From contig JASAMV010003527.1 in the NCBI GenBank assembly GCA_030248065.1, positions 1-64,000 on the forward strand: DNA of 64,000 nt. The letters are read 5' to 3'. Origin of the DNA: Rhynchonema sp. JSB1_4 (taxonomy: Eukaryota > Nematoda > Chromadorea > Monhysterida > Xyalidae). This document shows, piece by piece, positions 28,384-30,486 of this stretch. The position numbers and the translations under genes are program-made. Each line of letters opens with the position of its first letter. Position 1 is the first letter of the stretch. The notes beneath the pieces were generated by a model, which saw only the letters and a program-made list of their open reading frames with translations, had not been told where the DNA came from and searched no databases.

Positions 28384-30486
28384 CTAAAGATCACCACCAT
28401 TTCTGCTATGCGAACCCTGTTGGTCGCGCTGTGCTGCGAGTACAAGTGCGCACAGTTTGGTTGTGTCCACTTCTTGTGGGTGCAACTGTAGCACCCAGTC
28501 AACCTGATCAGGGTCGTTGAACAGTTGCGTCAGATGGTAGCGCACACGCGCACGATGCGTTTCGAATGGCACCTGGACGAATTGATTGAATTGGCAATTG
28601 ACTCAATCATACTCCCAATTCATCTTGGAGCAATGCTCACTCGTGTCTCGACGAAACAAGAACATCATCAACTCACCGGTTCTTGTTTGGTCGTTGTTTC
28701 GTGTGCCGGCCGCGTGCCAGCGCCTGTATCACCGGGCCGATGAACCAGACTGAACGTGGCCTGGCCCCAGACCGACGTAGACGGAACGTAGAATCCCGAG
28801 TTCGAGTCATGGTCTGAGTCCGTGGAGGACAGCGTCCTTGTACAAGTTTGGTGTAAAACATTATGATGTTGTGGCGCGCTGGCCACCCGTTCCAGACGCG
28901 AATGTACGTTGTTTCCTGATGCCCAAGGCCAGGCGGGTGGAGACAGGGAGCTGGCGCTGGATTGATTGCCATCTGTGGACGTCGATGATATGACACTACT
29001 GATGGGTGACGGTGCCAGACAATGATCTGCAGTCGTCTGATTATATACATTCGGTGAAACATCTATAGTTGGTGGCGGCGGCAGTTGGCTGGAATGTGTT
29101 GGACCATAGAGCACGGCGTGCGCATTGCGGTTAGAGGATAGCAGGCAAGGGTCCAGCGAGTGGGCTGCAATGTTTTAAGGATTCCTGGCTTTTTAAATTC
29201 TTAGTAAATCGTTATCAGAAATAAAAAGTACCAGCAGTGAGCGGTCTGTGCTGTCTCTGTTGAAGTAGACGATCGGTGACCGACATCTGGATCCCGCCCG
29301 GTCGCTCGGGATGAAAAAACCTGCAACTGGTGAAATTTTTTTAACTTTTCTGTCAATGGACGATAAACCAAAATGTAAATTGTAAAAGCATGGTAAACCG
29401 ACTTGCACTTATTGCCATAGGTGCACTTTCTGCCATACGGACACAAGTTCTTGTTTGCGTTTCGAACACCACTGCCTGCTCGCAATGACCCACCCCTTTC
29501 CGGAACTCTCAACAAACGTTGTCGAGGACAGTTTTCGGAGGTGCTGAAGGTATCAATCATTATACTTTTCTTCTAAACAGCAATTGAGACACCACAACAT
29601 AAATTCCAACACCGACTTTTTGCCCATTTTGATCAGCTCAGCCAACACCTTGTCTTGGTCGGGCAGCAGCTGTTGGTGTTTGTGGTCTGGACCGAGTGGT
29701 ATCAGTGCCTGCAGTGCCCGGGTCAGTTGCTCGTCGCTGTAGCCGAGACGCAGGGTGAAATCGCGCAGGTGCTCCAGCTTCTGTTTGGCCTGTTCGTCCG
29801 GGGGCTGAAATTTTTTTGTTGAAATTCAAAGATTAAGAAATTCACGAGACATTTATCTTAAATGAGTTGAAAAATAAAGTTTTTTTCTGATTTTAATGGT
29901 TTTCTCTTCAAACAACCTGAATAATCCAATGCTGCGAATGAGTGGACGGAGTGGAACAAATGGTCAGTGCACCGAACGTGTCCGAACATTCTCGACTGAG
30001 ACAGGGATGTGACGAGAGTGACGTGTCCGTTGAATCCGAGCACGAACTGTAGCACGAATCCTGAAATATCAGGGAACTGTGATTGAGCCGGACTACATAT
30101 TAACCAGGCAACATACTGTATGAATCAAGCTCCGACGTTAAACTTGGTGGTCCGCTGGGGATGGTTTGGTTACGTGATTTTTTTAAATCAACGATTGTTC
30201 CGATTGATGAAGTGATGGCATGTAACATCGAAACAAATGGTATCAGAAAGCATCGAAATAATGTTACAATTACAGAACCAAGACCGGGTCTGAACCTGGA
30301 CCGCCACTTTTGATGTCCGTGCCTACCAACAGCACAAACCTGCAGTTCGGCCGTTTTCGCTGATGGAATCTGTTTCACGGGTTTCTGTATGAATTCGCCT
30401 TCGAGTGGTTGTTGCCCGATGGACACCCTTCGACCCCTCGACACGCGACGTAAAGGGGGATGGCGAAGGGGTGGCGAATTGAGCAT
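28384..30486 (-). CDS. ZC3H12/Regnase-like CCCH protein lacking the NYN/PIN nuclease domain
   Basis: Seven exons (30486-30274, 30060-29917, 29804-29593, 29543-29403, 29320-29232, 29164-28677, 28572-28384) join with consistent phases to about 491 residues. Exon 3 gives the UBA-like N-terminal region (LRLGYSDEQLTRALQAL and VLAELIKMG). Exons 4-5 give the diagnostic finger CPYGRKCTYGNKCKFFHPER (C-x5-C-x5-C-x3-H). Exon 6 is a Ser/Pro-rich linker. Exon 7 is the conserved C-terminal helical region (VRYHLTQLFNDPDQVDWVLQ then HPQEVD). In ZC3H12A-D and REGE-1 the RNase (NYN/PIN) domain sits between UBA and finger. Here those parts are separated by only a short intron (about 49 bp), so the nuclease is absent. 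It may bind RNA or ubiquitin without cutting. Donor choices for exons 1 and 3 are my best phase-compatible picks. Confidence 0.82.

Follow-up and report, generated by a model that had tools for sequence, protein, structure and literature searches.

The window analysed here was a stretch of 64,000 nucleotides from the assembly of Rhynchonema sp. JSB1_4 (contig JASAMV010003527.1, positions 1 to 64,000). On its minus strand, at 30486-28384, a gene of the Regnase (ZC3H12/REGE-1) type was found, and the observation in a preliminary description that this gene lacks a nuclease domain was confirmed for this assembly. The gene model consisted of seven exons, all with GT-AG sites and consistent phases, and encoded about 461 residues followed by a stop codon. 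The features were as follows:

30340..30486, minus strand: exon 1, with the start ATG and the HPPLRRV motif; the open reading frame ends at CAG/gtttgt, phase 0
29917..30060, minus strand: exon 2, DSCYSSCSDSTDTSLSSHPCLSRECSDTF, a serine-rich motif; phase 0/0, with a ttcag acceptor and a CAG/gttgtt donor
29617..29804, minus strand: exon 3, the UBA-like N-terminal domain (UBA_6, PF18039), from profile match and alignment
29544..29616, minus strand: 73-bp intron at the site of the NYN exons in Regnase relatives, AAA/gtcggt...accttcag/CAC
29403..29543, minus strand: exon 4, a linker of about 33 residues, then the first part of the CCCH finger (CPYGRKCTYGNKCK)
29232..29320, minus strand: exon 5, FFHPERPGGIQMSVTDRL, the end of the finger
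28677..29164, minus strand: exon 6, a Ser/Pro-rich linker with the FYVPSTSVWGQATFS motif; 488 bp open in phase
28384..28572, minus strand: exon 7, the C-terminal helical domain and the stop codon, from profile scores and alignment

The first intron was 279 bp long, and the others besides the 73-bp intron were 67-112 bp. Exon 2 (30060-29917) had been missed in the earlier exon set. In the alignment, the HxPLRR/HxPLCR start of exon 1 was common to the nematode relatives P0002-P0007, the DSCYSSCSD...LSRECSD stretch of exon 2 was shared with nematode Regnases as DSCYSS...LSRE.SD and with insects in a looser form, and the FYVPSTSVWGQATFS motif of exon 6 was aligned with the nematodes and with P0001. 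Two adjoining terminal-inverted-repeat elements (30846-31252 and 31268-32309) were located directly upstream of the Regnase start, with arms of 24 bp and 18 bp respectively, each 100% complementary. An open reading frame at 42657-43052 of the window matched RNase H weakly, with 21.5 bits against a cut-off of 25.8, and is possibly a retroelement remnant.

The earlier reading that a UBA-like region, a finger and a C-terminal helical part lie in one phase-consistent model was borne out, with borderline scores for the C-terminus. UBA_6 (PF18039) was recognised with 39.6 bits (E 5.2e-10, cut-off 23.5) in the spliced model, and with E 5e-11 in the open reading frame of the UBA exon by itself. A single CCCH finger of the form CPYGxKCTYGxKC..H was present with all Cys/His ligands retained, and the finger region (CPYGRKCTYGNKCKFFHPERP) matched PDB chains of ZC3H12A in phmmer (best E 2.5e-10), while the generic Pfam CCCH models stayed below their own cut-offs on the model. 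At the C-terminus, UBA_N4BP1_C (PF23054) reached 28.2 bits with exon 7 alone and 25.0 bits in the full model (cut-off 27), and Regnase_1_C (PF18561) reached 20.8 and 18.2 bits, both below its cut-off of 25.7. From these scores, the C-terminal domain was recognised less firmly than the UBA-like domain and the finger.

The mean identity to relatives was 0.44 for the UBA domain (relatives with a complete domain 0.40-0.49) and 0.76 for the finger (relatives 0.68-0.76), so the conservation of these two domains is that of NYN-bearing relatives. For the C-terminal domain it was 0.35, compared with 0.38-0.47 for other invertebrates with a complete domain, and a one-residue insert was found. The UBA domain carried an insert of about 10 residues relative to most relatives in the alignment. 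The best named matches of the gene were nematodes, ranking after one transcript protein (P0001), and the tree built from the three kept domains left the gene unplaced, with a support of 0.10 beside an insect and vertebrate group. With regard to the host, the 13-kb contig C2636, on which COX1 can be read by code 5, is probably mitochondrial. Its COX1 was 77% identical to an ENA protein. To the named proteins among the best 120 of 7999 matches, which were mainly arthropods with a few ascaridoid nematodes, identity was only about 64-68%, and this low value suggests a lineage that has been poorly sampled. No exact copy of the nematode SL1 22-mer was found in the assembly.

The distance from the end of the UBA domain (end of ELIKMG) to the first finger Cys was 178 bp, and therefore an NYN RNase of about 150 residues cannot fit between the two. 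The short spacing of the UBA and finger exons had been noted before and was retained, whereas the borders given for it (about 29593/29543) were replaced by the preferred GT-AG pair 29616/29544 (73 bp). The in-phase junction in itself is weak evidence, because 35 stop-free, in-phase GT-AG pairs across the UBA-finger gap were listed by script. The donor hexamer gtcggt was common to the gap intron and exon 4, and the border of exon 4 was fixed by the reading frame of the finger. The profile search of the deduced protein gave the result predicted from the absence of NYN: PF11977 (NYN/PIN) was not among the families listed for the gene model, even with E relaxed to 10. When the window was scanned with an HMM of 95 Regnase NYN domains, the best score was 5.5 bits, compared with 25-27 bits in positive-control loci. 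The best tblastn NYN match in the window (6935-6723, E 6.5e-4, 29% identity) was 22 kb off and absent from the HMM list. Hidden NYN exons within the window were ruled out by the HMM and tblastn together. As for the linker of exon 4, PRQRLLRVPERGGSL was put near PDDPLGRYGPRLDQLL by MAFFT and mammalian sequences reached into the linker in tblastn; an NYN-tail remnant at this place found no profile support and was rejected.

When PF11977 was searched against the 204-Mb assembly, three matches at two distinct loci were obtained, with 33.8 and 27.7 bits. Contigs C4446 and C3821, which were 97.8% identical over 7.7 kb, were taken as one locus and are perhaps alleles, and C2996 was the other locus. 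A TGA and a TAG were counted inside the C4446/C3821 match, and by reading both fell in an intron just before the exon. After the exons were joined by eye, the PF11977 scores rose to 64.1 bits for C4446 and 51.3 bits for the C2996 locus, and neither UBA nor finger was detected by Pfam in the hand-joined exons of the two loci. In alignment with ZC3H12A, the NYN of C4446 had aspartate at all four catalytic positions, which are given as D141, D225, D226 and D244 in PMC12982082. The gene ended in a hydrophobic stretch, read by eye as perhaps a membrane segment, and the protein from its hand-joined exons had no homologue at E 1. The end sequence of the element at 30846-31252 upstream of the Regnase-type gene recurred at the C4446/C3821 locus. 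In the C2996 gene, near the contig end, the last catalytic aspartate was replaced by serine, and the beginning of its NYN could not be located in the stretch that was read.

A canonical Regnase NYN was not detected in the 204-Mb assembly at PF11977 sensitivity, and it could hardly have been missed, because exon-sized pieces of a nematode Regnase NYN (Steinernema, P0003) all scored between 28.2 and 54.4 bits (4 of 4). Motif searches were in line with this result. The patterns MPPDDPLG and VC[HY]DDR[YF]I gave 0 hits each in the assembly at up to one mismatch. SND.YRDL had no exact match and 36 one-mismatch matches, versus 66 for the reversed control; six of the 36 were scanned, with a best score of 5.2 bits, and were rejected. 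For [IV]DGSN[VI]AM, no exact match and nine one-mismatch matches were found, versus two for the control. Eight of the nine were scanned and rejected, since the best score of 7.6 bits was not above chance and none continued as NYN, and the ninth (C3657) was identical in its 24 letters to one of those scanned. A search with a single NYN protein returned 0 candidates, but it was silent even at the known divergent NYN loci and so shows nothing.

Only one copy of the gene was found, as neither a second UBA or finger copy in DNA nor a second finger copy in protein was detected in the assembly. Since two other loci keep near-identical contig pairs (97.8 and 98.6%), a second finger allele was sought as well, and none was found. 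Accordingly, the genome search for a second ZC3H12 gene with NYN returned none of canonical type, and the proposal of competition with an active paralogue finds no support, because it needs such a paralogue and only the two divergent NYN loci were present. The proposed loss of catalysis stood at the level of the assembly, given the 178-bp gap, HMM scores of at most 5.5 bits and no canonical NYN in the assembly.

The explanation that we favour, with a probability of about 0.62, is a real loss of the NYN catalytic exons that left a single-copy Regnase as a putative non-cutting adaptor, known from one assembly. A block of middle exons just after the UBA exon would have been removed. Such a removal fits the structure of C. 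elegans rege-1, because its NYN spans exons 4-7, directly after the third exon (PMC10441803). The protein would still be made and would be unable to cut RNA; it may serve as a non-catalytic adaptor whose finger touches RNA and whose two helical domains hold partners, which could be decay or translation factors or an NYN protein in trans. In mouse Regnase-1, the lone finger binds RNA with a Kd of about 10 uM and the PIN domain contributes to RNA binding (PMC4772114), and for this reason RNA binding by the NYN-less protein may be weak. The UBA-like domain at the N-terminus of the mouse protein binds PIN/NYN and is required for cleavage in vitro, with a Kd of 110 uM for the isolated NTD and PIN domains; ubiquitin binding, which had been proposed for the adaptor in the preliminary description, is therefore doubtful. 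The role of the mouse C-terminal domain was left open in the same paper (PMC4772114). The residues of the mouse NTD with the largest shifts on PIN binding are R56, L58, G59, V86, K87 and H88 (PMC4772114). When these were mapped on the alignment, L58, G59 and K87 were identical in the gene described here, V86 was changed to Ile, and R56 and H88 were changed to Leu and Met. The PIN-facing surface is thus only partly kept, since three of the six residues are identical, one is a Val-Ile exchange and two differ. The insert of about 10 residues in the UBA domain and the lesser conservation of the C-terminal domain, with its one-residue insert, speak against the favoured explanation.

The main rival is an artefact, in which the animal has the NYN exons and the assembly has lost or omitted them between the exons for UBA and finger. 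We consider this unlikely, although the assembly is fragmented (5747 contigs) with near-identical contigs uncollapsed, and a UBA-bearing Regnase without NYN is unusual: in the homologue set (the best 120 of 191 found, with PF18039 carriers counted by eye), 97 had PF18039 and all 97 also had PF11977. On the other hand, the window contained no N, the junction was a normal 73-bp intron sized like its neighbours and with the donor hexamer of exon 4, and the missing exons were on no other contig at PF11977 sensitivity. No repeat pair was found at the junction either, which says little, since collapse can leave one copy. A young pseudogene, with a recent NYN loss and a decaying remainder, would account for the lost catalytic domain, the UBA insert and the somewhat diverged C-terminal domain. 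It is rather improbable for a gene whose seven exons are open, in phase and bounded by GT-AG sites, and whose UBA and finger are conserved as in NYN-bearing relatives with every finger ligand in place.

A third alternative is a split enzyme: RNA would be cut in trans by an NYN protein from another gene (C4446/C3821), possibly anchored in a membrane and recruited by the UBA-like domain, and the Regnase-type gene would supply RNA recognition and regulation. The binding of the isolated mouse NTD to the PIN domain (PMC4772114) is compatible with this arrangement, as are the identical L58, G59 and K87, the Ile at V86, and the C4446 NYN with its 64.1 bits for PF11977 and its four catalytic aspartates in the alignment. 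Nevertheless, we regard it as very improbable: R56 and H88 are changed to Leu and Met here, the isolated domains bind with a Kd of only 110 uM (PMC4772114), the C4446 gene is highly divergent, with a hydrophobic end and no homologue at E 1, and no link between it and the Regnase-type gene was found.

A KH domain is typical of N4BP1/KHNYN. Membership in this group was rejected, as neither NYN nor KH was among the 8 Pfam families listed at E 10 and a finger was present. Besides Regnase, C. elegans has the Zc3h12a-like ribonucleases RDE-8, NYN-1 and NYN-2 (PMC6072111). These proteins have the nuclease, and the gene described here is the reverse. To our knowledge, they are without a CCCH finger. 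Among the titles and abstract openings of the literature matches listed, in which subscription journals were sparsely represented, no NYN-less Regnase was described. Five of the 120 listed homologues were without PF11977 (P0068, P0070, P0087, P0098 and P0101), and none of them had PF18039. Three of these had their start within the NYN tail and the other two shortly before the finger. Given these starts and the missing PF18039, they resemble isoforms or records that are short at the 5' end, unlike the present gene. The top-scoring relative, P0001 (a Logan contig of 471 aa, E 3.5e-25), was close in the finger and the C-terminal domain but differed in that the record starts within NYN and retains the NYN C-terminal part.

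C. elegans REGE-1 and the nematode Regnases (P0002-P0007) resembled the gene in the HxPLRR-like start, the UBA domain and the finger, and most of them also had the DSCYSS...LSRE.SD and PS..VWG-like motifs. In contrast to rege-1, only a short intron and a linker lie here between UBA and finger. Compared with Regnase-1 to -4 (ZC3H12A-D), the order of UBA-like NTD, CCCH finger and helical CTD was common to both and the finger was near-identical, whereas the NYN RNase of about 150 residues, which in the relatives separates the UBA-like domain from the finger, was absent together with all four catalytic aspartates. Regnase is regarded as an RNase in which the remaining domains assist cleavage. A natural NYN-less Regnase would suggest that the UBA-like domain, the finger and the C-terminal domain have a separate function, which could then be tested without interference from catalysis.
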